Below are positions 10,174 through 28,680 of a DNA stretch of 36,024 nt, piece by piece. Each line of letters starts with the position of its first letter. Positions within the stretch are counted from its first letter, which is position 1. A program made the translations under genes and the position numbers. The stretch is from the NCBI RefSeq assembly GCF_021026335.1, contig NZ_JAJNCY010000016.1, positions 1 to 36,024 of the forward strand, given 5' to 3'. The notes below the pieces were generated by a model, which was not told the origin of the DNA, made no database searches, and saw nothing but the letters and a program-made list of their open reading frames with translations. Source of the DNA: Rhizobium sp. C1. Its GTDB lineage: Bacteria; Pseudomonadota; Alphaproteobacteria; Rhizobiales; Rhizobiaceae.

Positions 10174-10198
10174 GCTGGCGAAGAGGATACATTGAGGA

Positions 10199-12779: not shown

Positions 12780-12784
12780 AAAAA

Positions 12785-12798: not shown

Positions 12799-12816
12799 AT
12801 TTTGAGGACGGTCGAT

Positions 12817-13560
12817 ATGTTTGAGGACCTTTCGGGGAAGAAGGCGCTGGTGACAGGCGCGTCGAGTGGTCTCGGCCTTCACTTTGCACGCGTGCTCGTA
12901 CAGCACGGTTGCCATGTGACGCTGGCGGCCCGGCGGCTCGACATCGTTTCGCAGGAGGCAGCGAGTTTGAGCGCGTCGGGAGGCGCCGCGCAGGGAGTGG
13001 CGCTTGACGTGGCATCCCCCGCCTCCGTCAAAGCTGCACTCGCCATCCCGTTCGATATCGTCGTCAACAATGCCGGCGTCACCGCAAGCGAGCCCGCACT
13101 GGACATGGCGGACGGCGCCTTTGAGCGGATTGTCGAAACCAATCTCAACGGTGTTTTCCATGTCGCAAGAGAAGCAGCGCGGGCGATGCGCGCAACTGGT
13201 AGACCCGGGTCGATCATCAATATCGCCTCCATACTGGGGCTGCGCGTGGCCAACCACCTTTCCGCCTATGCAGCATCGAAAGCAGCCGTCGTCCAATTGA
13301 CAAAGTCGCTCGCGCTGGAATGGGCCCGCTTCGGCATCCGCGTCAACGCGCTCTGCCCGGGTTATATTGAAACGCCTTTGAATGCCGATTTCTTTGCCTC
13401 CGACGCAGGCAAGGCCCTTATCAAGCGAATACCGCAACGTCGGCTCGGCACCGCTGCCGAACTCGACGCCCCGCTTCTACTTCTGGCTTCCGATGCCGGA
13501 AGCTACATGACTGGTTCCGTGATCGCCGTCGACGGCGGCCATCTCGTTTCTTCACTGTGA
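12817..13560 (+). CDS. Short-chain dehydrogenase/reductase (NADP-type)
   Basis: A 247-aa classical SDR: TGASSGLG at 13-20, AARR at the end of beta-2 (R39, R40) which favours NADP(H), NNAG at 84-87, and catalytic N111, S138, Y151, K155 (YAASK). The C-terminal MTGSVIAVDGGH is FabG-like. The ATG at 12817 has GAGGA 8 nt upstream; a 40-codon in-frame extension would run through the promoter and operator and is rejected. First gene of a three-gene operon with an acyl-CoA dehydrogenase 7 bp downstream, which points to a hydroxyacyl- or oxoacyl-CoA substrate. Substrate not determinable. Confidence 0.9.
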   Translation: MFEDLSGKKALVTGASSGLGLHFARVLVQHGCHVTLAARRLDIVSQEAASLSASGGAAQGVALDVASPASVKAALAIPFDIVVNNAGVTASEPALDMADGAFERIVETNLNGVFHVAREAARAMRATGRPGSIINIASILGLRVANHLSAYAASKAAVVQLTKSLALEWARFGIRVNALCPGYIETPLNADFFASDAGKALIKRIPQRRLGTAAELDAPLLLLASDAGSYMTGSVIAVDGGHLVSSL

Positions 13561-13567: not shown

Positions 13568-14782
13568 ATGGATTTCGAAATTTCTCCCGCCATCGAGAAT
13601 CTGAGAAAAGGCATAGCGTCCTTTGTCGAAGCGAATATTTTGCCGTTGGAAGCTGATCCAACGGCTTACGACCCCCATGGCAATATACGCACCGACCTGC
13701 TCGACCAAATCCGCGCCAAGGCGAAGGCTGAGGGCCTTTGGACCCTGCAACTCAATCGCCCGCACAAACCGGATATCGGTCGTGTGGGCATGGCGGTCTG
13801 CTACGAGGAAATGAACCGTTCGATCTTCGGCCCGGCCTGTTTGAATTCCGCCGCCCCGGATGATGGGAACATGATGCTGCTGGATGCGGTAGCCACTCCG
13901 GCGCAGAAGGAACGTTGGCTGAGGCCCATCGAAGATGGCCTCGTCAGATCCGCCTTCGCCATGACCGAACCCCATCCTGGCGGCGGCTCCGACCCGTCGA
14001 TGATGCGCACCTTCGCCGAGAAGGTGGGCGACAAATATGTGGTGCGCGGTCGCAAGTGGTTCATTACGGGCGCTGAGGATGCGAGCCATTTCATCCTGAT
14101 TGCCCGCACATCCGATGATGCCCGCAATGGACTGACGGCTTTCCTGTTTCATAAGGACCAGCCCGGCTGGCGTATCGTGCGTCGCATCGGCATCATGGGT
14201 CCAGAGGAACATGGCGGCCATTGCGAACTGGAATTCGATGGCCTTGAAATACCGGCCGAAAACGTTCTGCTTGGCGAGGGCAGGGGGCTCAAGGCAACCC
14301 AGATCCGGCTAGGCCCGGCGCGCCTCACGCATTGCATGCGCTGGCTCGGTCTCTCCAAGCGCTGCGTCGAAATTGCCACCGCCTATGCGGCGGAGCGCTC
14401 CGGTTTCGGGATCAGACTTGCCGACCGCGAAAGCATCCAGATGATGCTCGGCGATCTGGCGATGGGCATCGAGATCGGCCGCCTGCTGGTCATGAAAGCG
14501 GCTTGGGAGCTTGATCGCGGCAGTTTTGCGCGCAAGGAAATCTCCATGGCGAAAATCCATGTGGCGAACCTGCTGCATAAGGCGGCGGACACGGCCATCC
14601 AGATCAACGGCGCCCGCGGCTATTCGACCGACACGGTCCTGGAATGGATTTATCGCTATGCACGTCAGGCCAGGCTCGTCGATGGCGCCGACGAGGTCCA
14701 CAAGATGGTGCTTAGCCGACATCTGCAGGAAGAGGGTCGCGCCTTCTGGCATTGGGATGTCGCGGGAGCATATGCGCCATGA
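13568..14782 (+). CDS. Acyl-CoA dehydrogenase, ACAD10/11-like
   Basis: A 404-aa flavoprotein of the acyl-CoA dehydrogenase fold. N-terminal helices are at 1-120, the FAD/substrate beta-domain at about 125-230 (FAMTEP at 130-135, RGRKWFITGAE at 160-170), and the C-terminal helical domain at about 240-390. The loop that carries the catalytic Glu in classical enzymes (YEG) here reads VDGADEVH, placing Asp372 there, as in ACAD10/11-type enzymes. It is encoded between two SDR genes, 7 bp after the first and overlapping the next by 4 bp (ATGA). It may act on a hydroxy- or phospho-acyl-CoA instead of doing simple alpha,beta-dehydrogenation; that is inference. Confidence 0.92.
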   Translation: MDFEISPAIENLRKGIASFVEANILPLEADPTAYDPHGNIRTDLLDQIRAKAKAEGLWTLQLNRPHKPDIGRVGMAVCYEEMNRSIFGPACLNSAAPDDGNMMLLDAVATPAQKERWLRPIEDGLVRSAFAMTEPHPGGGSDPSMMRTFAEKVGDKYVVRGRKWFITGAEDASHFILIARTSDDARNGLTAFLFHKDQPGWRIVRRIGIMGPEEHGGHCELEFDGLEIPAENVLLGEGRGLKATQIRLGPARLTHCMRWLGLSKRCVEIATAYAAERSGFGIRLADRESIQMMLGDLAMGIEIGRLLVMKAAWELDRGSFARKEISMAKIHVANLLHKAADTAIQINGARGYSTDTVLEWIYRYARQARLVDGADEVHKMVLSRHLQEEGRAFWHWDVAGAYAP

Positions 14783-15668: not shown

Positions 15669-16910
15669 CTATTCCGAATAGAGGTATTTCAGCGACTGGC
15701 CGAGGGTCTTGCCACGTTCCTTCAGCTCCATCCTTCCAATGGAGCGCAGGTGAACTTCGTCCGGACCATCAATCAGGCGCAAGGCGCGGCCCCAGGTGAA
15801 GATATCGCCAAGGGGGGTGTCTGGGCTCAGCCCCATGGCGCCGAAAGCCTGGATGGCGCGATCCGTGACTTCACACTGCATTTGCGGAATCAATGTCTTG
15901 ATCATGGAGATTTCCTTGCGTGCGCTCTGAGCACCACCCTGATCGATCATCCATGCGGTTTTCAGAACCAGCAGCCGGGCCTGTTCGATGGAAACGCGCG
16001 AGCGGGCGATCCATTCGAGGATGGTGTCACGTTCGGCCAGATGGCGGCCGAATGTCTTGCGCTCCCGCACGCGGTCGCACATGAGATCGAAGGCGACTTC
16101 CGTCTGGCCGATCGAGCGCATGCAATGATGGATGCGGCCGGGCCCCAGCCGAGCCTGTGCCATCATGAAGCCATCGCCTTCCGTGCCGAGCAGGTTTTCG
16201 ACTGGAACGCGCACATTCTCAAAGCGTATCTCGCAATGGCCTTCAGGCGAGAAGTGATTGAGGATATTGATGTTGCGAACGACGGTCATGCCGGGCGTGT
16301 CGCGCGGGACCAGAACCATGCTCTGCTGCCGGTGCGGCTCTGCCTCCGGGTCGGTCTTGCCCATCACGATCATGATCTTGCAATTCGGGTGGGCGGCGTT
16401 GGTGATGAACCACTTGCGGCCATTGATGACATATTCGTCGCCGTCACGCCGGATGCTGGTCTGGATATTGGTGGCATCGGAGGATGCGACATCTGGTTCC
16501 GTCATGCAGAAGGCGGAACGAATATCGCCGGCCAGAAGCGGCTTCAGCCAGGCCTCGTATTGCTCCGGCGTGGCAAACATGTGCAGGAGTTCCATATTGC
16601 CGGTGTCGGGCGCGTTACAATTGAACACTTCGGATGACCAGAAGACTCTCCCCATGATTTCCGCCAGCGGTGCATAGTCGAGATTGCTCAGGCCCTGGCC
16701 GGGCTCGTCGGGGCGCAGCGACGGCAGAAACAGGTTCCATAGCCCTTGTGATCTGGCAAGCGCTTTCAGGTCTTCCATGAACGAAACCGGATACTGGCCG
16801 GCCTTGACTTCCTTATGCCAGAGGCGATCGCGCGGGATGACGTGCTCTTCCATGAACTCCGTCAATTGCTGCCTCAGCGCATTGCAACGGTCCGAATAGG
16901 TAAATTCCAT
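15669..16910 (-). CDS. Acyl-CoA dehydrogenase, ACAD11-like
   Basis: A 413-aa acyl-CoA dehydrogenase-fold flavoprotein with strong resemblance to the C-terminal enzyme domain of ACAD10/11: FCMTEPDVASSDATNIQ, NGRKWFITNAAHP, GPGRIHHCMRSIG and the helix ARKEISMIKTL. The catalytic-base loop reads LIDGPDEVH, with Asp381 at the position of Glu in medium-chain enzymes. ACAD11-type enzymes and LvaC of levulinate catabolism act on 4-phosphorylated acyl-CoAs made by an APH-like kinase; such a kinase is encoded nearby at 27255. Start at 16910: GGAGGA lies 7 nt upstream, while the 80 in-frame codons before it are the shadow of the SDR gene. It is the last gene of the eight-gene leftward operon. Confidence 0.93.
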   Translation of the reverse strand: MEFTYSDRCNALRQQLTEFMEEHVIPRDRLWHKEVKAGQYPVSFMEDLKALARSQGLWNLFLPSLRPDEPGQGLSNLDYAPLAEIMGRVFWSSEVFNCNAPDTGNMELLHMFATPEQYEAWLKPLLAGDIRSAFCMTEPDVASSDATNIQTSIRRDGDEYVINGRKWFITNAAHPNCKIMIVMGKTDPEAEPHRQQSMVLVPRDTPGMTVVRNINILNHFSPEGHCEIRFENVRVPVENLLGTEGDGFMMAQARLGPGRIHHCMRSIGQTEVAFDLMCDRVRERKTFGRHLAERDTILEWIARSRVSIEQARLLVLKTAWMIDQGGAQSARKEISMIKTLIPQMQCEVTDRAIQAFGAMGLSPDTPLGDIFTWGRALRLIDGPDEVHLRSIGRMELKERGKTLGQSLKYLYSE

Positions 16911-16939
16911 CTCATATTCCTCCGCCCGGTCGCGGGCTC

Positions 16940-17734
16940 TTACATTGCGGTCAGACCGCCATCGATTCCCAGCGCCTGCCCGGTCATAAAGCTGTTGTCC
17001 GGATCGGCCGCAAACCGCACCGCTACGGACACTTCGGCCGGATCGGCCAGGCGGCGCATGGGTATGCCTTGCGCCAGCTGATCGACATCCGAGTGATCCT
17101 GCCCGGGCGCGATCTGACCGAGCATGGGGGTACGCGCGAATGACGGGCACACCGCGTTGATGCGGATACCCCTGCGGGCATATTCCAGAGCAGTCGAGCG
17201 CGTCAGCCCGACGACGGCATGTTTCGAGGCCGCGTAGACCGCGAGGTGAGACGCGCCGACAAGGCCGGCAACGGAGGCCATGTTGACGATCGCGGCGCGC
17301 TGCCCTGTTCTGACAAAGGCCTCGCTCATTGCCGACAATTCATGACGCATAGCATGAATGACGCCGAGCACATTGATCGCGATCACCCGTTCTGCCTCGT
17401 CCGCACCTGTTTCCGCCAGCCGCGCAAGCGTAGAAGCAATGCCGGCATTGTTGACGGCGATATCGAGCGTGCCGAAATTTTCAAGCGCCGCCGCGACCAT
17501 GGCCGCCGCCGTTGTTTCACGGGCGATGTCGCCCACGGAGATCACCGCCTCGGCGCCATGCCCGCGGAGTTCATCTGCCAATGCTTCCAGCAATGCGCCA
17601 TCCCGGTCGCAAAGCAGCAGCCGCGCACCCTCATCGGCAAAGTCGGCGGCCATCTGCCGTCCGAGCCCCCCGGCGGCGCCCGTGATCAGTACCGTTTTTC
17701 CGGCGAACCGGCCTGTTGACTTAGATGCCGGCAC
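16940..17734 (-). CDS. Short-chain dehydrogenase/reductase
   Basis: A 264-aa SDR: TGAAGGLG at 18-25, Asp at the end of beta-2 (LCDRD, D43) favouring NAD(H), NNAG at 95-98, and catalytic N121, S154, Y167, K171 (YAASK). GTG start with a perfect AGGAGG 6 nt upstream; it overlaps the end of the acyl-CoA ligase gene by 14 bp, so translation is coupled. The acyl-CoA dehydrogenase begins 29 bp downstream. In a levulinate-like scheme it would interconvert the 4-keto and 4-hydroxy acyl-CoA, the LvaD role, but LvaD-like specificity cannot be shown from sequence. Confidence 0.9.
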   Translation of the reverse strand: MPASKSTGRFAGKTVLITGAAGGLGRQMAADFADEGARLLLCDRDGALLEALADELRGHGAEAVISVGDIARETTAAAMVAAALENFGTLDIAVNNAGIASTLARLAETGADEAERVIAINVLGVIHAMRHELSAMSEAFVRTGQRAAIVNMASVAGLVGASHLAVYAASKHAVVGLTRSTALEYARRGIRINAVCPSFARTPMLGQIAPGQDHSDVDQLAQGIPMRRLADPAEVSVAVRFAADPDNSFMTGQALGIDGGLTAM

Positions 17735-19352
17735 GAGCAGCCTCCTGTCTGAGTTCGGTCTTCACCAGCTTTCCATTGACGTTGCGCGGCAGAGGCTCGG
17801 TGCGGATCGTGAAACGATCAGGCACCTTATAATCGGCCACCCGCGCGGCTAGAAACGCGCGCAGCATCGCCTCGTTAACCGTACTCATGCCTTCGCCGGC
17901 ATAGACGAAGGCATGAGCACGCTCGCCAAGAACCGCACAAGGATAGGGCACCAGCGCCGCCTCGCGGACACCTTCGTATTCCAGCAGAAGGTTCTCGATC
18001 TCGGCGCTGAAAATCTTGTAGCCGCCGCGATTGATGACATCCTTCTTGCGGTCGCGAATACGGATATTGCCCTCGGCATCGCGTGCGGCGATATCGCCGG
18101 ACTTCCAGTAGCCGTCGTGGAACGAAAGCGCATCGGCCTCCGGATTTTCCCAGTAGCCCGGGACGACCATGGGCCCCTTGATCAGAAGTTCGCCTTCCTC
18201 CCCTTCTGCTACATCGCGACCGGCATCGTCGACAATGCGCAGCTCGCCGCAGGGAACAACGCGGCCAACACTGTCTGTGACAGCCGAAAGCCCGAGCGGA
18301 ACCAGCGTTGCGGGAGAGGTTGTCTCGGTTGCGCCATAGGCATTGTGAAGGCTGAGATGCGGTAGGGTTTCAGCCAGCCGAAGCCTGATGGCCTCAGGCA
18401 TCGGGGCGCCGCCAAACGCTCCGATGCGCCAAGTCGGCAAGGCCACGTTTTTCAGCGCATCTCGATGGAGCAGAAGCGTGTACATGGCCGGTACCATGAT
18501 CGTGTATGTCAGGGCGTGTTGCGCGGCGAGTTCGACGAACCGGCCGGTGTCAAAATGTGGCATCATGACCAATGTGCCCGCACAGCCGAACATGACAAGG
18601 ATCTGAGCGGCAAGCCCTGTCACATGGGTACAGGGAACCGCGAGCACGGAGACCTCGCCATCCTTCAACTGGAAGACCATCCTGTAATGCAGAACGGTGT
18701 GAACCATGCCGAAATGGGTGATCTTCGCCCCTTTTGGCCTGCCGGTTGTGCCTGACGTGTACATCAGCACCGCGCAGGCATCTTCGTCGATTTTCGGCTG
18801 TTCGAACTGCGGGTGCAACGGCGCCGTCCCCAGAAGCTCGGCATAGGATGTACCTTGCTCCCCGGCGCTCACAACATCCGTAGCGACACCGATATAAAGT
18901 CGAAGCGAAGGCACCTCCGTTCGGTCTGGCTGTTCCGGCGCTGTTTCCGCATCGCACAAAACCGCACAGACGCCGGCATCGCGATAAAGCCCCACCAGTT
19001 CGGCGCGGCGGTGACGATGGCCGACCGGCATGGCGATAAAGCCGGCCTTGAAGGCGGCCAGAAGCCCCACAACGAATTCGATCCTGTTTCCGGTGTTGAG
19101 AGCGATGCGATCACCGGGGCACAGGCCGGCAGCGCCAAGAGCTGAGGCAAATTTCGTGGCCTCCGCATCCAGCGCAGCATAGGTCAGCGCCCTTTGCGCA
19201 TCGCGCACCGCCACGCGTTCGGGCGCAAGGCGAACGGCGGTATCGAAGATATCGCGCATGTCATGAGGACGCGGCGTCAGACACAGAACAGATCTATTTC
19301 CGAAATGGGTTTCACGATGCAAGCCGATCTCGTTGAGCGCAAAGCCCGCCAT
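17721..19352 (-). CDS. AMP-forming acyl-CoA ligase
   Basis: A 543-aa ANL-superfamily ligase. Visible: P-loop MYTSGTTGRPKG at about 197-208, the NAYGATETTSP motif, the hinge YWKSGDIAARDAEG, RDRKKDVINRGGYKIF, and the C-terminal catalytic lysine in PRNVNGKLVK. It should activate the imported acid to its CoA thioester (the LvaE role in the proposed pathway). GAGGAG sits 9 nt upstream of the ATG at 19352, so I keep this start over an internal ATG at 19259. It follows the ABC ATPase gene by 94 bp and overlaps the SDR by 14 bp, which ties the enzymes to the transporter in one operon. Confidence 0.92.
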   Translation of the reverse strand: MAGFALNEIGLHRETHFGNRSVLCLTPRPHDMRDIFDTAVRLAPERVAVRDAQRALTYAALDAEATKFASALGAAGLCPGDRIALNTGNRIEFVVGLLAAFKAGFIAMPVGHRHRRAELVGLYRDAGVCAVLCDAETAPEQPDRTEVPSLRLYIGVATDVVSAGEQGTSYAELLGTAPLHPQFEQPKIDEDACAVLMYTSGTTGRPKGAKITHFGMVHTVLHYRMVFQLKDGEVSVLAVPCTHVTGLAAQILVMFGCAGTLVMMPHFDTGRFVELAAQHALTYTIMVPAMYTLLLHRDALKNVALPTWRIGAFGGAPMPEAIRLRLAETLPHLSLHNAYGATETTSPATLVPLGLSAVTDSVGRVVPCGELRIVDDAGRDVAEGEEGELLIKGPMVVPGYWENPEADALSFHDGYWKSGDIAARDAEGNIRIRDRKKDVINRGGYKIFSAEIENLLLEYEGVREAALVPYPCAVLGERAHAFVYAGEGMSTVNEAMLRAFLAARVADYKVPDRFTIRTEPLPRNVNGKLVKTELRQEAARAGI

Positions 19353-19446
19353 GATGATGTGCTCCTCAAATTTTCGTCACGCGCACGACAAGACATCCGT
19401 CTCTAGTAACGACAGGTCTGCGACGGCTCGGCGCGGCGCCGACGCG

Positions 19447-20955
19447 TCAGTGAACGGCGGCAAAGATGATCTTTTCCTCACTGGCATCTCGCGCTTCGAA
19501 TTCCTCGACAATCTGCCCCTGGCGTGCCACGAGGATTCGGTCGGAAAGCGTCAGGATTTCAGGCAGGTAGGACGAAACAACGACGACAGCGATTCCCTCG
19601 TCCGCGAGTTGCTGAATGAACTCATGGATCTCGCGGATGGCGCCGACATCGACGCCGCGCGTGGGTTCGTCAAAGATTACCAGCTTCGGCGTTTTGGTCA
19701 GCGCCTTGGCAATCACAACCTTCTGCTGATTGCCGCCGGAGAGTTCGATCACCTTGGCATCGCTGCTGATCGCGCGGATATTCAAACGCTTGATCCAGTG
19801 GTCCGCCAGGTCTCGGGCGCTGCGATAATCGATGACATTCCACATGCTGCGATTGGCCACCGTGTCGCCGACCTGAATGTTCTGGCCGATCGTCATCGTA
19901 TCGAAGAAGCCTTCGCTTTTGCGATCCTCGGTCACGTAAACGATTCCGTCTTCGACGGCCGGACCCGGCACGCGATAGCGTATCGGACGGCCTTCCAGCA
20001 TGACATTGCCGCCATGAAAGAGGTCGCGCTTGTAGATGCCTGCAACCACTTTCATCATTTCGGTGCGGCCCGAACCGATCAGGCCGAACACGCCGGTGAC
20101 CTGTCCCGAAAAGACCGAAAAAGACGCGTTGCGCACGGCAACACCCATGGAGATGTTTTCGACGCTGAGTGTGCGATCGCCGGGCGGGCGCTGCTTGATC
20201 TCGCGACTTGCAAGGTCCGCATAGGCGGAGTCCGAGAGGTCGCGGCCGATCATCGCCTTGACGATGCGGCCTCGATCGAATTCGGCGCAGGGTCCGCTGT
20301 CCACGATCCGCCCGTCCCGCAGCACGGTAATCGAATCGGAAATGCTGAGCGCCTCTTCAAGCGCATGCGAAATGAAGATGATCGCGACCCCACTTTTCTT
20401 CAGCCGTCTTACAAGGCTGAAGAAATGGTGCTTTTCCTCGGGCGTCAGGGTTGCTGTCGGTTCGTCGAAGATGATCACCCGTGCCTTGTGATGCACGGCG
20501 CGCGCAATCTCCACCATCTGGCGCTGGGCCGCGCCCAGTTCCGACACATAGAGCGTCGGATTGACATGGAAGTTCAGCGACTGGAGGAATTGCTGCGCGG
20601 CAATATTGAGTTTGCGCAGACCGTTGAACAGCTTCTCGTCGCCCAGATAGATATTCTGAGCGACCGACATGGTCGGGACAAGGCTGTTTTCCTGATACAC
20701 CATTGCAATGCCCTTCGAGAGCGCATCGGCTGGCGATCGAAAGGCGATTTCCTCACCGTCTAGAAGCAGCTTGCCGGCGGTGAGCTGATGCACGCCCGCC
20801 ATGATCTTCGTCATCGTGGACTTGCCCGCTCCGTTCTCGCCAAGCAGCGAATGGACTTCGGCGGGCATGAGACGAAAATTGATGTCTTCATTCGCAACCG
20901 CGCCATGGAATTCCTTGCGGCCGTCGCGAATTTCAATGATCGGTGTCTCGCTCAT
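19447..20955 (-). CDS. Sugar-type ABC transporter double ATPase (RbsA/MglA family)
   Basis: A 502-aa protein with two fused ATPase domains, as in RbsA, MglA and XylG. Domain 1: Walker A GENGAGKS at 39-46, atypical signature LGAAQRQMVEIARA, Walker B VIIFDEPTA. Domain 2: degenerate Walker A GLIGSGRTE, signature LSGGNQQKVVIAKAL, Walker B LVIFDEPTRGVD. One complete and one degenerate site is normal for the family. ATG at 20955 with GGAGG 6 nt upstream, 1 nt after the stop of the free propeller gene; a 40-codon extension is rejected. It energises the permeases encoded at 22048 and 25318. Confidence 0.94.
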   Translation of the reverse strand: MSETPIIEIRDGRKEFHGAVANEDINFRLMPAEVHSLLGENGAGKSTMTKIMAGVHQLTAGKLLLDGEEIAFRSPADALSKGIAMVYQENSLVPTMSVAQNIYLGDEKLFNGLRKLNIAAQQFLQSLNFHVNPTLYVSELGAAQRQMVEIARAVHHKARVIIFDEPTATLTPEEKHHFFSLVRRLKKSGVAIIFISHALEEALSISDSITVLRDGRIVDSGPCAEFDRGRIVKAMIGRDLSDSAYADLASREIKQRPPGDRTLSVENISMGVAVRNASFSVFSGQVTGVFGLIGSGRTEMMKVVAGIYKRDLFHGGNVMLEGRPIRYRVPGPAVEDGIVYVTEDRKSEGFFDTMTIGQNIQVGDTVANRSMWNVIDYRSARDLADHWIKRLNIRAISSDAKVIELSGGNQQKVVIAKALTKTPKLVIFDEPTRGVDVGAIREIHEFIQQLADEGIAVVVVSSYLPEILTLSDRILVARQGQIVEEFEARDASEEKIIFAAVH

Positions 20956-20956
20956 G

Positions 20957-22051
20957 TCAAACCTCCGACTCTGCCACCGCAAGGACGAGGCCATCGCCCT
21001 TCGCGCCGATCCACAGATGCTGCAAGCCGTCAACATGCGCCGTTGCCAGACTGGTGATGCCATGAACCCGGCCATTGGCGCGGCTGTGCAGGCTCGACAA
21101 GGGCCGCAGATCGTTTCCGAGACGAATGACCAAACCGTAGGAAAAGGTGGGTGCCCAAGGTTTCAGAATGCCCATCTGCTTGACGCCGCCGCCCTGAAGC
21201 GGCTCGCGGAAGTCGCGTGCCGAGCGCAGCATCGGCGCCACCCAGAATTCTTCTGGCACCGAGGCCATCATTCGCTGGCGATATTCGATTTCCGATAGCG
21301 TGAATTCGACAAGCTGATTGCGCGGTGCAAACACGCTGAGCCAGTAGCCTCCGCCGTGCGCCCGCACGATCCGGGAGGGATAGCCGGGTAGCCGTTCTAA
21401 CGGTGTGGGTGCGGGCGCCGCGCCCGGCCTCAGCGGATCGATGAGCACGAGACGATGCCGCCAACTTTCCGACACGACCAGCTGGCCAGACGGCGCCTGG
21501 GCCAGCCCGTAAGGCCAGGCGAGCCCGCGCGCCAAAGTAACGGGCGCGGATGAATCGCCGGCCCAGAGCAGCACACTGCCGGTCGCGCCATGGTCCATGA
21601 GGTCGCGGCGCCAGCGGTCGGGCGCATTCTCTGCGGACCCGCTGGCAATTGCCAGCCGGCCGTCATTAAGAAAAAGCAATGCGGTGGGGCAGGCAATATC
21701 GAGCGTCGCGAGGCGATCGCCACCGGCTGCTGCGGTCAGCAAAACCCGCCCCTCGTCAAGTCCGATGGCGACGCGTCCGTCCTCGGCGACAGCGAGTGCT
21801 GAAATCGGACTGCTGAACTCGGCTACCGTTTCAAGATCGACCCCGACGATGCGGAGAAGTTTCGGACCGCTACTGGCCAGAAGGCCCGTCCCGTAGGCGG
21901 TCAGATTGTCAATGGCTTCAATCCGGTGCCGTACCTCACAGGCATCCAGCGTCTCGTTCGCCTTCAACGGTCCATCCATGACGGGAACGAAAATGCTGGC
22001 CTCGCCCCGTCCGAAGAAGTGATCGATATGACGTCTGATCGCGGCAATCAT
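20957..22051 (-). CDS. Stand-alone beta-propeller, strictosidine-synthase/SMP-30-like
   Basis: A 364-aa protein homologous to the propeller half of the upstream fusion gene: both contain an LPGYP...GGYWL block (LPGYPSRIVRAHGGGYWL at 221-238) and a matching WPYGLAQAPSGQLVVSES block. The metal-binding residues of SMP-30/strictosidine-synthase-like propellers appear lost here: the Asn of the PNG motif is Tyr181 (WPYG), and the Asp of the YPDNI motif is Ser226. It is therefore probably not a conventional metal-dependent lactonase; a ligand-binding or accessory role is possible. No signal peptide. The ATG at 22051 overlaps the fusion gene's TGA (ATGA), and the ABC ATPase follows 1 nt later, so it is made together with the transporter. 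Confidence 0.85.
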   Translation of the reverse strand: MIAAIRRHIDHFFGRGEASIFVPVMDGPLKANETLDACEVRHRIEAIDNLTAYGTGLLASSGPKLLRIVGVDLETVAEFSSPISALAVAEDGRVAIGLDEGRVLLTAAAGGDRLATLDIACPTALLFLNDGRLAIASGSAENAPDRWRRDLMDHGATGSVLLWAGDSSAPVTLARGLAWPYGLAQAPSGQLVVSESWRHRLVLIDPLRPGAAPAPTPLERLPGYPSRIVRAHGGGYWLSVFAPRNQLVEFTLSEIEYRQRMMASVPEEFWVAPMLRSARDFREPLQGGGVKQMGILKPWAPTFSYGLVIRLGNDLRPLSSLHSRANGRVHGITSLATAHVDGLQHLWIGAKGDGLVLAVAESEV

Positions 22052-24165
22052 GTCTTGTCCCCCCAATAGGATTGGGTGCCCTGCCAGGACGCATCGGCGT
22101 CCGGCAATTTGTATTTCCCGATGCGGTTGTTGGAGATGCCGCCCAGATAAAGGTGGCCCTTGTGCTCGCGCATGGACGTCACCATCGGATGATTGACGCC
22201 GCCGAGATCCCAAAGCGAGGTGACGACCTCGCCCGCCTCGGTGAATTTGAGAACGCACCCGGTGTTGATGTTCGGAAACAGCCAGTTCGATCCCGAAACC
22301 CGGCGCGACATGCGTTTGCGGAAGTCCGGCATTTTCAGCGCGAGATCGAGCGCGGGGCCGCGCATGCCGACCAGCGCCAGCCAGTAGCCGCCATCGGAGG
22401 CGCGGTTGATATTGTCGGGATAACCGGGAAGATTGTCGATCACCACCTCGACCTTGCCGGCTTTCGGACCGTCAAACCAGTAGCGCGAGATGCGGCAGGC
22501 CCAGGTTTCGGCAAAGAGGAATGACTTGCCATCGCGGCTCATGCAGATGCCATTCGGGAAGACGAGCCCTGTCAGAACGGTCCGTGTTCGCCCCGTCGCC
22601 GGATCGTAACAGACGATGCGCCCGTTGCCGCGGCTTTCGAGCGCGTCGACCGGCCAATTGTGCAGATCGTAACGTTTGGTCGCCTCAGAGAAGAAGATCC
22701 GTCCGTCAGGCGCGATGTCGAGGTCGTCGGCAAGGCTAAGGCGCGAATCGTCGATGATCGAGGTCAGCGAGCGGTTGGTCTCGTCCGTCACCTTTCTGAC
22801 ATCGCCGGCAGGCGAGACAGCATAGACGCCCATGCCGCCGACACAGGTCACGAGATTGCCCTGTCTATCGAAGGCCAGACCGAGCGGATGGCCACCGATA
22901 TGGGCGAAAATCTCATGTCGTTTGTAATCTGGGGCGAAGAAGCGGACGATGTCGCCATGGCGGGTGCCGGTGTAGAGGTTGTCCTCGGCGTCCAGGATCA
23001 CGTCTTCCGGCCCCTCGACATCGCCGAGGCCGATCAGTTCAACCTCGCGCAGCCTGTTGTTCTGGGCATAGGGCGAGGCGCTATCCGCCGCAGTTTCGGG
23101 TGCTGCCGGCAATGCCGAATAAGCCGGAGAGACATAGACCTTGTTGAGAAGTTTGGTACGGTTCTTGGTCCAGCGCACCTCGACAATGACCGAGAGCAAG
23201 AGCGTCAGGCCGAAGACCAGCGCAGTCGCTCCGCCCTGAATCCCGAACTGGATCAGGCCGTTCGACAGGAAAAGCACGATCAGGCCGCCGAGCAGCGCCT
23301 TGGCCGCCGAGCCACGGCCGCCGCCAAGGCTCGTGCCACCGAGAATGGCTGCCGTCAGCGCCACCATTTCCATGCCCATACCGGTTTCCGCGCCGGTGCT
23401 GGCAAGCCGTGCAGCGTACATATAGGCAGCTATGGAGCACAAAAGGCCGCTGACGACATAGGTGAAGAAGACCGTGCGCCGGACATTGATGCCGGCATTA
23501 TAGGCGGAACGCCGCGCACCACCGACCGAGACCAGATGCCAGCCCGCCCGCATGCGACTGATCACAATATGCGTGAACACGAAGATCAGGGCGGTGGCGA
23601 TGATCGTATAGGGAAACCCGAAAAACGCCCCTTCGCCAATGGCTGCCCAAACGTCCGAGTCCGGAAAGACGGAGGAAATCGCCAGCGCATATTTGAGCAG
23701 CAGAATATCGACGATGGCTCGGAAGATGATCAGCGAGACGAGCGTCGTCAGGAAGGCGCGCATCCTCAAAAAGCCGATCAGCACACCATTGAACGCCCCG
23801 CAGAGAATGCCCGTCAGCCCGGTCAGCACGAAGGCCAGAGCCGGATTGAGCCCCAGAGCGTGGACGCAGTACAGAGCGACGAAATTGCACACGGCGAAAA
23901 TGGACCCGACCGACAGATCGATGCCGCCGCCGAGCATGACAACCGCCAGCGCAAGTGTGACAAGGCCAAGTTCCGCAAACTGGCGGCTATATTCGCTCAG
24001 CGCATAGGGCGAAAAGAAGCCCGGCAGGCTCACGTAAAGTCCGATCAGAAGCAAAATCAAGACCGAGAACGGAATTGCATTGTCGATCCAGCGCTTTGAG
24101 AGAATTTCGCCAAGGACGTGATCGGGCACGACCCGATAGCGCCACTTTCTGTAGGTTTCCAGCAT
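22048..24165 (-). CDS. ABC permease fused to a strictosidine-synthase/SMP-30-like propeller
   Basis: About 705 aa, nearly twice the length of an ordinary RbsC-type permease. Residues about 30-335 are a BPD_transp_2 permease with about eight to ten membrane segments and the family blocks VMLGGGIDLSVGS (77-89) and ILGGTSLGGGRGS (274-286). A short linker (about 340-380) leads to a six-bladed propeller (about 380-690) with GPED (E387), LADDLDIAPDG, FPNGI (N538) and GYPDNI (D584): the Glu/Asn/Asp metal set of SMP-30-like lactonases. RbsC-type permeases end in the cytoplasm, so the propeller should meet the substrate as it enters. ATG at 24165 chosen; a GTG at 24228 is possible. No frameshift is needed, so the fusion is real unless the sequence is wrong. 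Confidence 0.92.
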   Translation of the reverse strand: MLETYRKWRYRVVPDHVLGEILSKRWIDNAIPFSVLILLLIGLYVSLPGFFSPYALSEYSRQFAELGLVTLALAVVMLGGGIDLSVGSIFAVCNFVALYCVHALGLNPALAFVLTGLTGILCGAFNGVLIGFLRMRAFLTTLVSLIIFRAIVDILLLKYALAISSVFPDSDVWAAIGEGAFFGFPYTIIATALIFVFTHIVISRMRAGWHLVSVGGARRSAYNAGINVRRTVFFTYVVSGLLCSIAAYMYAARLASTGAETGMGMEMVALTAAILGGTSLGGGRGSAAKALLGGLIVLFLSNGLIQFGIQGGATALVFGLTLLLSVIVEVRWTKNRTKLLNKVYVSPAYSALPAAPETAADSASPYAQNNRLREVELIGLGDVEGPEDVILDAEDNLYTGTRHGDIVRFFAPDYKRHEIFAHIGGHPLGLAFDRQGNLVTCVGGMGVYAVSPAGDVRKVTDETNRSLTSIIDDSRLSLADDLDIAPDGRIFFSEATKRYDLHNWPVDALESRGNGRIVCYDPATGRTRTVLTGLVFPNGICMSRDGKSFLFAETWACRISRYWFDGPKAGKVEVVIDNLPGYPDNINRASDGGYWLALVGMRGPALDLALKMPDFRKRMSRRVSGSNWLFPNINTGCVLKFTEAGEVVTSLWDLGGVNHPMVTSMREHKGHLYLGGISNNRIGKYKLPDADASWQGTQSYWGDKT

Positions 24166-24249
24166 CGCCACGACTTCAACTCGAATGTTTTTGAGGGGTG
24201 TGTGGGCGGCGGCCGTCCTGGCAGCCACCGCCCTTGCCTTGGGAGCAAC

Positions 24250-25278
24250 TTACTTCGAGGCGAGGCCTTCGACGGTCCAGCAGGCACCGAAATTTCGATA
24301 CTTGTCGAGATTGTCGGCTGTCAGCATCTGCAACTGAGTGTAGAGCGAATAGTTGTTTTCACCGGGCTTGGACTTGGACTGGAAAAGCGCCTTGATGCCA
24401 TTTGCCAGATCGCGGGCCTGGCCGGGCACGTCATAGCTGATATCGAGGTCGAACACGCCGTCCTTCAGATTGTCGCAGCCGGCCTTTCCGCCACCGCCCG
24501 ACGTGACGATGAAGACGTCCTTGTCGCGTCCGGCCTGCTTGACGGCCGCACCCGTGCCCACATCCATACCGTCCCAGAAGCCGATAATGCCGCACAGATC
24601 CTTGTTCTGCTGCAAGGTGGTTTCGGTGATGGCGCGGGCCTTGGAAGCATCCCAGTCGGCTGCCTGATTGGAGACGATCTTGATCTCGGGGTGCTTCTCG
24701 AGAACCTTGGAGATTCCGCGAAGCTGATAGGCGCTCGCCGCCGCAGTCGGTACGCCCTGAACGATCGCGATCTTGCCGGATGTGCCCTGACCGCACTTGG
24801 CCACCACAGCTTCGGCAGCCCGGCGGCCGATATCCATATAGTCGGCGCCAGCGAATACATCGGTCGCATAAGCTGATTTCATGTTGATCTGAAGGACACG
24901 AATGCCGGCTTGCTCTGCCTTGCGCAGCAGCTTGGCATAGGTCTGAACGTCGGGATTGTGGACAACGATGGCGTCCGGCTTTTCGGCAATCAGCGAGGTG
25001 ATGGCACGGGAACCGGCATCCGTGCTCCAGTTCGGGTCGCGCACATCGACGCTGACGCCTAGAGGCTCAAGCTGGTTCTTGAGGCTTGCATACCAGCCGT
25101 CGGTCAAATCGAAGCCGAGAGCCAGTGGCACGAAGACGACTTTCTTGCCCTTCAGCGCCTCGTAATAGGCATCGCGCTGGGGATCGTCGATCCCCATGTC
25201 CTCGGCGCGCGCCACGGCAGTCAGGGGCAGCATGAAGGCCAGAGCCAGGCCTGCGAGTTTGATTTTAAGCGATGTCAT
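24250..25278 (-). CDS. Periplasmic substrate-binding protein, RbsB-like
   Basis: A 342-aa secreted binding protein of the sugar-type (Peripla_BP_4) family. Residues 1-25 are a Sec signal peptide (positively charged start, hydrophobic core, VARA cleavage site before ED). The mature part shows the two-lobe pattern: FVPLALGFDLTDGWYASLK near the N-terminus, then IAEKPDAIVVHNPD, IRVLQINMKS and GIIGFWDGMDVGTG. ATG at 25278 with GGAGG about 5 nt upstream. It sits between the two permease genes. Members of this family bind sugars, polyols, autoinducer-2 and other small polar ligands, so the ligand here cannot be named. Confidence 0.94.
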   Translation of the reverse strand: MTSLKIKLAGLALAFMLPLTAVARAEDMGIDDPQRDAYYEALKGKKVVFVPLALGFDLTDGWYASLKNQLEPLGVSVDVRDPNWSTDAGSRAITSLIAEKPDAIVVHNPDVQTYAKLLRKAEQAGIRVLQINMKSAYATDVFAGADYMDIGRRAAEAVVAKCGQGTSGKIAIVQGVPTAAASAYQLRGISKVLEKHPEIKIVSNQAADWDASKARAITETTLQQNKDLCGIIGFWDGMDVGTGAAVKQAGRDKDVFIVTSGGGGKAGCDNLKDGVFDLDISYDVPGQARDLANGIKALFQSKSKPGENNYSLYTQLQMLTADNLDKYRNFGACWTVEGLASK

Positions 25279-25317
25279 TCTTTCCTCCCAGAATATGACA
25301 GTAGGGTTTCAAGTGGT

Positions 25318-26349
25318 TCAGATGTCGCCTTGTTGACTTGTCTGCTCGTCGCGCGGGTTCAGGATCGTATCAACAAGGATTGCCAGCAGAAGGATCAAGC
25401 CCTTGATCAAACTCTGCTCGTTGTAGGAAATGTTCAGAATAATCATGCCGTTGAGCAGCGTTCCGATCAGCAGTGTTCCGATCAGTACGTTCTTCATCCC
25501 CCCGCGCCCGCCCGACAGCCCGATCCCGCCGACAACGACGACGAGAAGCACATCGTAGATAAGCGTCGAGTTGAACATGCGCGTGTTGATGTTGTTCACC
25601 GCGCCAGCCGTTAGAAGACCCGCAAAATAGGCAACCAGACCAGCGAAGACATAGATCACCACGGTCGCTGGACGCGCGGGAATGCCGGCGGAGCGCGCCG
25701 CCACTGGATTGTCGCCCATGGCGTAGATGAAGAGCCCCAAAGCCGTCTTGCGCAAGACGATGTGAACCAGCACCAGCACGACCAGGAAGCAGATGATCGA
25801 GATCGGAATGCCAAAAAGCTGGCCCCTGCCGAGTGCGAAGACCCAGGTGGCGCTCTCCGGCAGATAATTGGCCTCGGCCGGCAGGAAGAGCACACGCCCC
25901 ACACCGTAGATCACACTGCCCATGGCGAGCGTCGTGAAAACCGCCGGCAGATCGGCATAGGCAATGATCGCGCCGGTCAATGCCGTCACGATGACGACGA
26001 AAACCAGCCCGAGCAGGGCACCCTGCCAGAAAGGCAGGCCGCCGGGCAAGGGGCCGTCCGGGCGCGAAAGAACGATTGCAACGCCGGCGCCCACCGCAAG
26101 GGTTGCGATCAGGGACAGATCGATACCCCGACTGATGACGACAACGGCCATTCCTACACCGAGAATGCCGAGAACCGACACACTGCGCAGCAGCGTGAGG
26201 AGGTTCCCCGTCGTCAGGAAGCCATTCAGAAACAGGCTGAACCCGACAAACAGGATAACCGTGATGGCGATGACGATGTTTTCGTGGCTCGCCTTGAAGC
26301 GTCTTCTTGGCCCCTGGGCGGCCGCCATTTTTCCTGAAGATTGTGTCAT
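25318..26349 (-). CDS. ABC transporter permease, RbsC-like
   Basis: A 343-aa BPD_transp_2 permease with a hydrophilic N-terminus, then about eight to ten hydrophobic segments. Family blocks: VVISRGIDLSLIATLAVG near residues 65-85 and VGGIGLSGGRGGMKNVLIG in the C-terminal third. Unlike its partner encoded at 22048, it has no C-terminal propeller. The two different permeases probably form a heterodimer served by the ATPase at 19447. It is the first gene of the leftward operon; its start is 138 bp from the divergent GntR gene, with a FadR-type operator between. Confidence 0.94.
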   Translation of the reverse strand: MTQSSGKMAAAQGPRRRFKASHENIVIAITVILFVGFSLFLNGFLTTGNLLTLLRSVSVLGILGVGMAVVVISRGIDLSLIATLAVGAGVAIVLSRPDGPLPGGLPFWQGALLGLVFVVIVTALTGAIIAYADLPAVFTTLAMGSVIYGVGRVLFLPAEANYLPESATWVFALGRGQLFGIPISIICFLVVLVLVHIVLRKTALGLFIYAMGDNPVAARSAGIPARPATVVIYVFAGLVAYFAGLLTAGAVNNINTRMFNSTLIYDVLLVVVVGGIGLSGGRGGMKNVLIGTLLIGTLLNGMIILNISYNEQSLIKGLILLLAILVDTILNPRDEQTSQQGDI

Positions 26350-26382
26350 GTCACACGCGCTTTGCTGTTGCCTAATATCCGT

Positions 26383-26393
26383 TTGTCTGACAA
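26383..26393. promoter_or_regulatory. FadR/GntR-type operator
   Basis: TTGTCTGACAA is a perfect 5-1-5 inverted repeat and fits the TNGTNNNACNA consensus of FadR-subfamily GntR regulators exactly. It lies in the divergent gap between the ABC operon and the GntR gene, where it can control both. A second perfect palindrome, GTGATATCAC, follows at 26395-26404. Confidence 0.7.
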
Positions 26394-26394
26394 T

Positions 26395-26404
26395 GTGATA
26401 TCAC
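26395..26404. promoter_or_regulatory. 10-bp palindrome next to the GntR operator
   Basis: GTGATATCAC is perfectly self-complementary and starts one base after the GntR-type operator. It may be a second regulator site or an extension of the operator. The call rests on symmetry and position only. Confidence 0.4.
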
Positions 26405-26487
26405 TATATTCAGATTAATAGACTTCTTGCAAGAGGGTTTCGCCATTGGTATCTCACAATGCTCCAGAGGCACCGGAGAGATGGAAA

Positions 26488-27258
26488 ATGAAAGCGCGTC
26501 CCATTGTCGTTCAGACCTCCTATCGGGAAGTCTTCAACCAGCTTGAGGACGCGATCCTGCGTGGAGAGCTGAAAATTGATGAGCCGCTGCCGACGGAGGC
26601 GGAGCTGTGCGACATCCTTCAGGTCAAGCGCTCGACCGTGCGCGAAGGCATTCGACTGCTGGAGCAGAGCGGTCTCGTGACACGCAACAGCGCCCGACGC
26701 CTTGTCGTTTCAGCCCCGGATGCCAGCCGTTCGTCGGAAAACATCATCCGCTCGGTGACGCTCAACAAGGTCACGCTGGAGGAGCTGTGGCGTGTCCAGC
26801 GCGAGCTGGAAGCGCTTGCCAGCCGGCTTGCCTGCGACAACATTTCCAAGCCTCTGCTCGAGGCGCTTGCCGACAATATCGAACAGACGCGGGTGTCGCG
26901 CGACGATCCCAAGACCATCGTCAAGATCGACATGGAGTTTCATCGCCTGATCGCGCATGCTTCCAACAACCGGGCCCTGACGCTGGCGCGTGATCCGCTG
27001 GGCTTGTTGCTCTATGCGTCGAGCGACTTCGTCATCACACGCCTTGCCCAATCGACCGATCGCCTGATCGCAGCGCATCAGCGCATCTACGATTCAATTG
27101 CAGCGAACGATCCAGAAAATGCTGCCAAATGGATGTTGAAGCATATGGATGACTTCAAGCGCGGCTGCATCATGGCTGGCGCCGTCTTTGACGACCCCAT
27201 TCTCGATTTCGTTGATATTGATGTCCTCTCCGGACTGACGGAAGCCCTTAGAAAATGA
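26488..27258 (+). CDS. GntR-family regulator, FadR/FCD subfamily
   Basis: A 256-aa regulator. Residues about 12-75 are the GntR winged helix (GELKIDEPLPTEAELCDIL, then KRSTVREGIRLLEQSGLV). Residues about 95-235 are an FCD ligand domain with the metal-site pattern D148-x3-H152 in IDMEFHRLIAHAS. FCD domains usually bind small carboxylic acids, which suits an acid or lactone catabolic operon. ATG at 26488 with GGAGAG 7 nt upstream; 14 earlier in-frame codons are rejected. Divergent from the ABC operon, with its probable operator between, and overlapping the kinase gene by 4 bp. Confidence 0.94.
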   Translation: MKARPIVVQTSYREVFNQLEDAILRGELKIDEPLPTEAELCDILQVKRSTVREGIRLLEQSGLVTRNSARRLVVSAPDASRSSENIIRSVTLNKVTLEELWRVQRELEALASRLACDNISKPLLEALADNIEQTRVSRDDPKTIVKIDMEFHRLIAHASNNRALTLARDPLGLLLYASSDFVITRLAQSTDRLIAAHQRIYDSIAANDPENAAKWMLKHMDDFKRGCIMAGAVFDDPILDFVDIDVLSGLTEALRK

Positions 27259-28295
27259 CCATGCAAGACCGCTGCGATATTGATCTCGATCAGGACCGCC
27301 TTGGAGCCTATCTCGGCCACGTGTGGCCGGAAGCCGGCAAACTCGTGAGGATTCAGCGATACAAGGGTGGACAGTCCAATCCCACTTACAGGCTGTATTT
27401 CGAACGCAGCAGCGCCGTGCTGCGTCGCAAGCCGTTTGGAACGCTGCTGAAATCAGCGCATGCGATCGAACGTGAGTATCGTGTGCAGGATGCGCTGAAA
27501 GGAACCGGCGTGCCACTGGCGCGCATGATCCATCTGTGTGACGACACCGAGGTCATCGGGGCCGCTTTTTATGTCATGGAACATGTGGAAGGACGGATCT
27601 TCTGGGACCCGGCCCTTGCCGAGATAGACCCTTCGGAACGCCGCGCTTATTATGAGGCCATGGCCCGCTCGCTGGCAGCTCTCCACCGCGTCGATCCGAA
27701 CGAGGTCGGCCTCGGCGATTTCGGCCGGCCGGGCAATTATTTCGAGCGCCAGATAGCTCGCTGGACAACGCAATATCGCGCCAGCGAAACCGAGAAGCGC
27801 CCCGATATCGATCGTATCATCACCTGGCTGAGCGAGACGCCTTCGCCGGCGGATAACAGCGCCTCTCTCGTGCATGGCGATTTCCGCATCGACAATATGA
27901 TTTTCGATCCCAGAAAGCCCGAGATTCTCTGTTTCCTCGACTGGGAATTGTCCACCATTGGCCACCCGATTGCCGATATTTCCTATCAATGCATGCAGTG
28001 GCGCTTGCCGAACCAGGGCGTGATCAGCGGTCTCGGCGGCATTGACCGGGCGGCCGCCGGCATACCAACGGAAGACGAATATCTTTCCATTTATTGCCAG
28101 GCGGCTGGAATTCCGGAAATTCCACACTGGCCGTATTATCTGGTCTTCAATTTCTTCCGGCTGGCGGCCATCCTCGACGGAGTTTACCGCCGCGTGCTTG
28201 ATGGCAATGCCTCGGATCCGGAACGCGGACGCAAAATGGCCGCATCAATCCCCATGCTGGCGGAGATGGCCGTGCAGATCATCGACGAGGGTTGA
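27255..28295 (+). CDS. APH-fold phosphotransferase, LvaA/ACAD10-11 kinase-like
   Basis: A 346-aa protein of the aminoglycoside-phosphotransferase/choline kinase fold: ATP-site lysine in VLRRKPFG (K59), a helix Glu at 72, the catalytic loop HGDFRIDN (H207, D209, N214) and the metal motif FLDWE (D229). It most resembles the kinases linked to ACAD10/11 and to LvaA of levulinate degradation, which phosphorylate the 4-hydroxyl of an acyl-CoA. It is not expected to be a resistance gene: the N-terminal GGQSNPTYRL is typical of the ACAD-associated group, and the neighbourhood is catabolic. The start overlaps the GntR stop in ATGA, so it is made with the regulator that faces the ACAD11-like operon. 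Confidence 0.88.
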   Translation: MTMQDRCDIDLDQDRLGAYLGHVWPEAGKLVRIQRYKGGQSNPTYRLYFERSSAVLRRKPFGTLLKSAHAIEREYRVQDALKGTGVPLARMIHLCDDTEVIGAAFYVMEHVEGRIFWDPALAEIDPSERRAYYEAMARSLAALHRVDPNEVGLGDFGRPGNYFERQIARWTTQYRASETEKRPDIDRIITWLSETPSPADNSASLVHGDFRIDNMIFDPRKPEILCFLDWELSTIGHPIADISYQCMQWRLPNQGVISGLGGIDRAAAGIPTEDEYLSIYCQAAGIPEIPHWPYYLVFNFFRLAAILDGVYRRVLDGNASDPERGRKMAASIPMLAEMAVQIIDEG

Positions 28296-28464
28296 GCATC
28301 TTCAATCTATACGACACGCGCTGGTTCAAATTGGAAACAGCATGAACTCAGCATTCCGTTGCCGGCCCGACGTTGTGGCTTCGGCTAGCGCGTCCATCAT
28401 GCCGATACCCACAAGGCTCTCACGCATATCTGCTGATACGGAAGCTAGGTCGCGCTGATCAAGC

Positions 28465-28680
28465 TTGCCTGCAGCAAACGGCGACGGCTTCGACGATCTG
28501 CTCGTCGGCGCACGGACCAATGATGTCGACGAAGGTGATGACAGGGGCGCGGCCTGCTTCTTTTTCGGCGAGACATATGTCGGCGGGCGGGACTACCGAG
28601 GCCCAGGCGACGACGATGTGATTGCCCAGGCGCGGTTCAGAAAGCACCGGCTTGGGCTTCTATCGGGCAAATGCCGGTAG
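28465..28680 (+). pseudogene. FG-GAP repeat relic
   Basis: The 365-bp gap between the kinase and the RND pump holds a short frame from a TTG at 28465. It reads NGDGFDDLLVGART, then DRGAACFFFGETYVGG: one FG-GAP (integrin-alpha-type, calcium-binding) repeat, with the NGDGFDD calcium loop and the closing FG. A stop lies in frame at 28456 and only one repeat remains, while real FG-GAP proteins carry several and are secreted. It is probably the debris of a larger surface-protein gene. Its 3' end runs into the RND coding region on the opposite strand. The rest of the gap (28296-28464) shows nothing certain. Confidence 0.45.

Follow-up and report, generated by a model that had tools for sequence, protein, structure and literature searches.

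A propeller-fused CUT2-like ABC importer encoded with ACAD10/11-type kinase and dehydrogenase genes in Rhizobium sp. C1, a candidate uptake system for hydroxycarboxylic acids or lactones

We analyzed a 36,024-bp window (positions 1-36024) of the 4.53-Mb Rhizobium sp. C1 genome, which encodes an ATP-binding cassette (ABC) importer together with enzymes of acyl-coenzyme A (acyl-CoA) metabolism (Table 1); its GC content is even (0.57-0.62). Eight closely spaced minus-strand genes are transcribed in the order permease, binding protein, permease-propeller fusion, second propeller, ATPase, CoA ligase, short-chain dehydrogenase/reductase (SDR) and acyl-CoA dehydrogenase (ACAD), with gaps of 39, 21, -4, 1, 94, -14 and 29 bp. 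Divergent from this operon lies a GntR-kinase gene pair whose frames overlap by 4 bp. The fusion consists of a permease (residues about 45-354), an arginine/lysine-rich linker and a propeller (about 372-726). All genes named in an initial annotation of this DNA are present, in frame and with strong family matches; the starts needed correction, that of the ACAD to 16910 (413 aa, not 493) and that of the ATPase to 20955. The annotation rightly described an importer with a fused putative lactonase domain and missed both the five-gene cassette, with its second propeller, and a second dehydrogenase carrying the ACAD10/11 motif.

The gene set recurs at a further locus, L018, where identity is 75% for the permease, 80% for the binding protein, 77% for the fusion, 56% for the second propeller, 77% for the ATPase, 73% for the GntR regulator, 63% for the ligase and 62% for the kinase; the ACAD is 76% identical over the 76 residues up to the contig end. 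Hence, the gene set of the window reflects more than chance.

Table 1. Genes of the importer operon, the divergent pair and the second dehydrogenase in the window.
Feature	Coordinates	Strand	Evidence or remark
Importer gene 1: CUT2-type permease, 343 aa	25318..26349	-	PF02653; first gene of the cassette in the 88/109 exact-order loci
Importer gene 2: periplasmic binding protein, 342 aa, hydrophobic N-terminal segment 4-24	24250..25278	-	PF13407
Importer gene 3: fusion of permease and strictosidine-synthase/paraoxonase (STR/PON)-like propeller, 726 aa	22048..24228	-	PF02653, PF20067, PF03088; fold search
Importer gene 4: second, degenerate propeller, 364 aa	20957..22051	-	Predicted STR/PON fold; metal-ligand positions lost
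Importer gene 5: double ATPase, 502 aa	19447..20955	-	PF00005 in two stretches
Acyl-CoA (AMP-forming) ligase	17721..19352	-	PF00501; 63% identical gene follows the ATPase in L018
SDR dehydrogenase	16940..17734	-	PF13561; 49% identical SDR adjoins a paralogous kinase in the same genome
ACAD10/11-type dehydrogenase, 413 aa, R254/R259/H262/R265/D381	15669..16910	-	ACAD11 match, tree, residues
FadR-type GntR/FCD regulator	26446..27258	+	PF00392, PF07729; translation may instead begin at the ATG at 26488
APH-fold kinase of ACAD10/11 type, 346 aa, catalytic D209	27255..28295	+	Matches to 3dxp and the ACAD11 kinase domain
Second ACAD10/11-motif dehydrogenase, R247/R252/H255/R258/D372	13568..14782	+	ACAD11 match, motif, tree

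As judged by sequence, the kinase and the ACAD that ends the operon are of the ACAD10/11 type. We found the best solved relative of this ACAD to be mouse ACAD11 (419.9 bits, vs 153 for the top-ranking ACAD that is not of the ACAD11 kind); the kinase is 40.1% identical to mouse ACAD11, and its solved relatives are 3dxp (346.7 bits), the ACAD11 kinase domain (263.6 bits) and then 9o56 (178.8 bits). The available part of PMC12440821 gives R626, H634, R637, R631 and D753 as the ACAD11 residues for the 4-phospho substrate. The ACAD keeps the phosphate site as R254, H262 and R265 (equivalent to R626, H634 and R637), along with R259 (R631) and the catalytic D381 (D753), and D209 of the kinase, in VHGDFRIDN, corresponds to D220 of the ACAD11 kinase. 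In a 53-row tree, for which the program warned of long branches including the second window ACAD and the outgroup, the ACAD falls inside the ACAD11 clade (support 100/99), and the two window ACADs together split from ordinary ACADs (100/100). The placement on which the initial annotation had chiefly staked its reading, run here against ACAD11, is thus borne out by the catalytic residues, the phosphate-binding residues and the tree. The predicted activity of the ACAD is conversion of a 4-phosphoacyl-CoA to a 2-enoyl-CoA, and the SDR may interconvert 4-oxo and 4-hydroxy forms.

The second ACAD (P0001) carries RLGPARLTHCMR and DGADEVH, matches ACAD11 best (221.7 bits, vs 156 for the first ordinary ACAD), and keeps R247, H255 and R258 of the phosphate site as well as R252 and D372 of the ACAD11 pattern. 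Relatives from its group that share this motif adjoin cassettes in L018, L037, L053, L067, L072 and L083, and together they form a clade sister to the ACAD11 clade (96/82, with long branches). Such an ACAD, an SDR and a ligase directly follow the kinase in L018; the window has members of these families, with 28-40% identity to the L018 genes, in a plus-strand cluster ending at 15498. We infer that both ACADs serve one pathway, with the second probably functionally linked. As a marker of the importer, this ACAD subfamily was rejected, since matches to the L072 member (1e-85, motif unchecked) occur in 36/190 genomes of the class vs 4/190 for the fusion; in 9 of the 36, our side-by-side reading of the two result lists places a kinase match no more than 3 kb away.

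The ACADs nearest to that of the operon in the tree include those of Burkholderia, Azoarcus, Caballeronia and Ruegeria. In four plasmid regions (L173-L176), they stand with a kinase, in three cases with an SDR, and in Azoarcus and Caballeronia with a histidine phosphatase; no cassette proteins were found there at 1e-30. The kinase and ACADs could be read as a general clearance route for 4-hydroxy fatty acids that merely adjoins an importer with another job, given that the kinase type is present in 77/190 class genomes vs 4/190 for the fusion, that 67-72% identical ACADs stand in kinase clusters lacking the cassette, and that the same genome has a second kinase/SDR/ACAD unit. We consider this very unlikely, since the importer operon ends with the ACAD, the kinase is encoded across the same promoter region in the divergent direction, L018 retains both together with the importer, and similar neighbors occur in other lineages (L008, L037). 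The second unit of the genome (L113, 6010-9284) has the ACAD motif RLGGGRIHHTMR (C to T), and no cassette proteins were found around it in the 19 kb examined. On the circular Salipiger abyssi plasmid pPABY1 (L012 and L177), a cassette and an FCD-regulator/kinase/ACAD set stand some 26-29 kb apart across the record start.

The exact order permease, binding protein, fusion, second propeller and ATPase is seen in 88 of the 109 loci whose fusion gene is long, a total that counts the locus in the window; of the remaining 21, 12 reach a locus end and 9 have one slot with an unrecognized gene. At 80% identity the 109 loci make up 39 groups, from alpha-, beta- and gammaproteobacteria, and many of the carriers are rhizobia. 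Counting the window's genome each time, the fusion is present in 13/101 relatives, 4/190 class genomes and 8/200 phylum genomes. One genome scan with the fusion gave at least 79 loci, and a tblastn search of plasmids gave 15 records with at least 80% coverage, all 15 regions of which were examined. A full-text search, whose coverage leaves out most subscription papers and preprint servers, yielded no published description of the importer among the matches listed (judged by title and start of abstract), and no relevant passage was found in the available part of PMC9007349.

In a tree of 49 fusion proteins made by a quick method, the window groups with L018, and four mevalonate-linked loci described below (L024, L040, L052 and L056) share with it a larger, weakly resolved part; L037 goes with L053 near Comamonadaceae, and L008 is far from the window. 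Kinase-like genes stand near the cassette in L008, L018, L037 and L067. The kinase/ACAD label requires at least two changes on well-supported branches of this tree; hence, kinase/ACAD-type enzymes were probably gained more than once. As constant partners of the importer they were rejected, since ACADs with the HCMR motif flank the cassette in 7/93 loci and are absent from the flanks available for the other 86. The importer is a separable module. The conserved-neighborhood check that had been proposed shows a conserved importer order and the set kept in L018, and the partner genes vary among loci. In L037 (17037-20216), the permease and both propellers form a single 1060-residue frame that faces a second complete cassette, and a Dongia metagenome-assembled genome (L026, 187-22034) has three tandem cassettes, the first cut by the locus end.

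The importer has the features of the CUT2 class, with a BPD_transp_2 permease, a Peripla_BP_4 binding protein and a double ATPase, and the NCBIfam names that come closest are those of ribose, arabinose, allose and xylose systems, none of which reaches its cut-off. Taken at face value, this architecture and these names would make it an importer of a sugar or sugar acid with unrelated CoA genes next to it, and SMP-30 relatives, which resemble its propeller, open sugar lactones. We aligned 101 binding proteins and read against 2ioy the positions that we take to coordinate the sugar in ribose-type binding proteins. One Asp is replaced by N132 (94/101), an Asn by W235 (101/101), another Asp by G262 (93/101), and the Arg by A183 (A, V, L or I in 83/101). 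On this alignment, the binding-protein family has lost the sugar-ligand residues. D57, W62, C162, C229, W235 and C268 are invariant (W62, W235 and the three cysteines in 101/101), and a fourth cysteine is kept in 99%.

The genes operon-linked to the cassette also differ from those of sugar importers. Linked genes (68 proteins) occur in 25/38 cassette groups, and the 25 families displayed, which leave out single-member families, include SDR (9), AMP-binding (6), CoA_transf_3 (4), enoyl-CoA hydratase (ECH; 4), zinc alcohol dehydrogenase (ADH; 4), aldehyde dehydrogenase (ALDH; 3) and, more rarely, 3-hydroxy-3-methylglutaryl-CoA (HMG-CoA) reductase, thiolase, MaoC and CMD (2 each). In the control, CUT2 importers of relatives (54 linked proteins from 17/20 loci; 25 families displayed), we found aldo/keto reductase (6), xylose-isomerase-like (5), PfkB (4), FGGY (3), mannitol dehydrogenase (3) and DeoR (3), with a single acyl-CoA type family, CoA_trans (2). 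Sugar genes thus mark the control loci and are not among the displayed cassette families, which together with the overlaps within the operon, the gene set conserved in L018 and the replaced ligand residues makes sugar import with chance CoA neighbors highly improbable. The cargo is probably not a sugar. By a BLAST panel, an acyl-CoA gene lies within 9.5 kb of the cassette in 53/93 loci and 18/30 groups.

The clearest anchor for the cargo class is mevalonate. Degradative HMG-CoA reductase scores above the TIGR00532 cut-off in L017, L020 (Alcanivorax), L024, L040, L052 and L056, standing immediately upstream of either the cassette or its CoA-transferase/hydratase genes; all of these but L017 also carry a CoA transferase, ECH and HMG-CoA lyase, the lyase being confirmed by NCBIfam in L020, L024, L052 and L056 and lying on the other strand in L040. 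With G023 and G046, where the reductase and the fusion share a strand and lie 2.2 kb apart, the link holds in eight loci altogether. The enzyme is uncommon, being over the cut-off in 13/101 relatives and in 4/190 class genomes, and none of these 4 class genomes carries the fusion. Mevalonate lactonizes readily; since mevalonate and 4-hydroxy acids both form lactones, either fits a lactonase-like domain at an importer. The initial proposal of a lactone or hydroxy-acid importer gains from the HMG-CoA reductase-linked cassettes and the lost sugar-ligand residues; a gamma-lactone as the specific substrate is unproven. In L003 and L068, cassettes are followed by two SDRs and two large genes (annotated in L003 as a major facilitator superfamily transporter and a dihydrolipoamide acetyltransferase), perhaps a diketone/acetoin-type route.

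The propeller of the fusion (propeller 1) is predicted with a predicted local distance difference test score (pLDDT) of 84.2, and its fold matches strictosidine synthase, TGW6, Drp35, the RPA3624 lactonase, DFPase and SMP30. TGW6 (8kg3) is its best PDB sequence match (8.1e-26) and second in the fold search. The catalytic calcium ligands of PON1 are E53, N168, N224, D269 and N270 (PMC7766523, available part); matched by motif rather than superposition, their equivalents in propeller 1 are E408, D501, N559, D605 and N606, each kept in 108/109 fusions (counting D or N at 501). Lactonase activity of propeller 1 may be proposed from this conserved site. The second propeller, for which the longer frame was searched, gave no Pfam or NCBIfam match; its AlphaFold2 (AF2) model (pLDDT 90.1) matches strictosidine synthase and then also PON1 and TGW6 by fold. 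In 30 sequences its metal-ligand positions are mostly lost: the D605 position is A, G or S in 30/30, N606 is lost in 30/30 (R in 29/30), N559 stays N in 11/30, and E408 is D in 30/30. A simple hydropathy scan showed no hydrophobic segment in the second propeller and about ten in the fusion, followed by the arginine/lysine-rich stretch; hence, both propellers are probably cytoplasmic.

The same data admit two other uses of the propellers. The pair could be a non-enzymatic cytoplasmic gate or sensor on the permease, with a free hydroxy or oxo acid imported as such; the lost metal site of propeller 2, the permease fusion, the strict gene order and the single frame of L037 would suit this. We regard it as unlikely, since a pure gate would have no need of the five metal-ligand positions that propeller 1 keeps. 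Alternatively, the cargo could be an ester or conjugate, such as an acyl glucoside or a plant-hormone-type conjugate, that is cleaved by a TGW6-like esterase propeller, the freed acid being activated and degraded. TGW6 is an indole-3-acetic acid (IAA)-glucose hydrolase according to the available part of PMC10958001, and its rank as closest PDB sequence, like the many rhizobia among the carriers, speaks for such a cargo. We hold this, too, to be improbable, since degradative HMG-CoA reductase and CoA transferases occur among the linked genes, the 25 displayed linked families comprise neither a glycosidase nor a sugar kinase, and the binding protein lacks the sugar-ligand residues.

We therefore favor, with moderate confidence, a reading in which the ABC importer of the minus-strand operon takes up a small hydroxycarboxylic acid or its lactone and feeds a ligase-kinase-dehydrogenase route removing the 4-hydroxyl. 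The binding protein would deliver the cargo to the permease pair, and the metal-dependent paraoxonase/strictosidine-synthase-like propeller at the probably cytoplasmic end of the permease would most likely hydrolyze the ring or ester as the cargo emerges, so that it would be trapped as the carboxylate. The second, metal-less propeller may act as partner or gate of propeller 1. Inside the cell, the presumed flux would run from the acyl-CoA made by the CoA ligase, through interconversion of 4-oxo and 4-hydroxy forms by the SDR and phosphorylation of the 4-hydroxyl by the kinase, to removal of the phosphate by the ACAD10/11-type dehydrogenase, giving a 2-enoyl-CoA for beta-oxidation. The GntR regulator may control both transcription directions. 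More tentatively, and with a good deal more doubt, the cassette might define a general family, so far undescribed, of ABC importers for lactones and hydroxy acids, where a lactonase propeller opens a neutral lactone at the channel exit (one-way uptake), a pseudo-enzyme propeller gates, and lineage-specific modules finish the route: mevalonate breakdown, 4-phospho-acyl-CoA elimination with two ACAD10/11-type enzymes, or CoA-ligase/hydratase sets.

Several findings weigh against the favored reading. For the propeller, the closest solved sequence is that of an ester hydrolase, TGW6, not a lactonase; the H115/H134 dyad of PON1 is not recognizable in propeller 1, where position 447, beside the matching motif, is variable; and two beta-propeller lactonases were inactive on gamma-valerolactone in one study (PMC12362111, available part). 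For the neighbors, 40/93 cassette loci have no acyl-CoA panel gene within 9.5 kb, some cassettes adjoin ADH/ALDH or SDR genes, and the kinases of L008, L037 and L067 are only 24-31% identical to that of the window. For mevalonate, 11 of the 13 relatives with the reductase have no cassette next to it, and the enzyme is missing from the genome of the window, so that the mevalonate link belongs to other cassettes. Finally, 86/93 cassette loci lack an HCMR-type ACAD in the flanks available (at least 7 kb on both sides in 73 of the 93 loci); hence, the cassette alone does not imply a 4-hydroxy acid, and the cargo proposed for the window's cassette is inferred.

The rest of the window holds further modules. 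From 2099 to 11749, a plus-strand cluster encodes an SDR, an AraC regulator, HyuA-like and HyuB-like proteins of the acetophenone-carboxylase/caprolactamase type (scores under the equivalog cut-offs), an SDR and a CoA ligase; it could convert a secondary alcohol via a ketone to a carboxylated, CoA-activated acid. An SDR gene (12697-13560) lies just ahead of the second ACAD and is divergent from a TetR gene (12006-12707). Right beyond the kinase, on the opposite strand, are a resistance-nodulation-division (RND) efflux pump and an HlyD-type adaptor (28660-32987). A tRNA-Met (14-90) stands at the contig end, followed by a methyl-accepting chemotaxis protein (MCP) receptor with a PAS domain (190-1617). 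Between the divergent operons, the 10-bp palindrome GTGATATCAC (26395-26404) was rejected as operator evidence because the divergent region of L018 yielded no copy of it and 46/100 shuffles of the window had at least one match with at most one mismatch.

If the favored reading is true, a widespread importer whose parts carry sugar-system annotation would gain a function, soil and plant-associated bacteria would gain an uptake step for mevalonate and for 4-hydroxy acids or lactones, and there would be an example of an ABC permease with an enzyme at its exit. In the mevalonate-linked cassettes (L017, L020, L024, L040, L052 and L056), ligand binding could be probed directly with mevalonate and mevalonolactone. 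As for the kinase and ACAD, they form a bacterial counterpart of human ACAD10/11, and their natural operon setting may point to the substrate.

Among the closest known systems are the Pseudomonas putida lva operon and the P. citronellolis cluster without lvaB (PMC6692424, available part), which share with the window a phosphotransferase, an ACAD, an SDR and a CoA ligase as enzyme set. Compared by description rather than by LvaA/LvaC sequences, the window differs from the P. putida operon in having an ABC importer with propellers and in lacking LvaB and the sigma-54 regulator LvaR, the locus regulator being GntR/FCD. No gene for the 12-kDa LvaB was found at the locus: the intergenic gaps above 60 bp measure 170, 94, 96 and 364 bp, and the frames mostly within them encode 62-82 aa from TTG or GTG starts, so that no LvaB-sized gene is hidden. 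The initial annotation had likewise seen no LvaB-like partner, and the only gap above 170 bp (28296-28659) has no frame above 82 aa mostly inside it. This lack is no anomaly, since in the P. citronellolis lva region, too, no lvaB was found according to the available part of PMC6692424, and the cluster there includes a histidine phosphatase; the ACAD/kinase plasmid regions resemble that cluster, so that the lack of LvaB fits the kinase group of the window. No LvaB was identified among the small frames beside ACADs in phylum loci. In L008 (6583-7053), a 157-aa protein lacking a Pfam match lies beside a cassette, between a remote kinase and a CoA ligase, and is a possible LvaB-like partner; the L008 kinase, searched against 150 phylum genomes, gave no match at 1e-40. 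Of the initial idea of a variant Lva pathway, the enzyme families stand and the operon make-up does not: the locus is not an lva operon, and its enzymes add new members to the known ACAD10/11-Lva kind and stand in a new setting.

Mammalian ACAD10 and ACAD11 (PMC12440821 and PMC11342911, available parts) belong to the same kinase and ACAD subfamilies, and their phosphate-site and catalytic residues are kept in the window. Unlike them, the window has two separate genes, in an operon setting with an importer, a ligase and an SDR, and a second ACAD subfamily nearby. The PON1, SMP-30, Drp35 and RPA3624 lactonases and the strictosidine-synthase-like proteins, including TGW6, share the propeller fold and, in propeller 1, the metal-ligand positions. 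Unlike in PON1/SMP-30-type lactonases, propeller 1 is tethered to an ABC permease and shows no recognizable PON1 His dyad, and the second propeller has no metal site. The CUT2 sugar importers RbsABC, AraFGH and AlsABC share the permease, binding-protein and double-ATPase families with the cassette, which is CUT2-like; in contrast to them, it has two different permeases, of which one is joined to a propeller, as well as an additional propeller gene, changed ligand residues and non-sugar gene neighbors.

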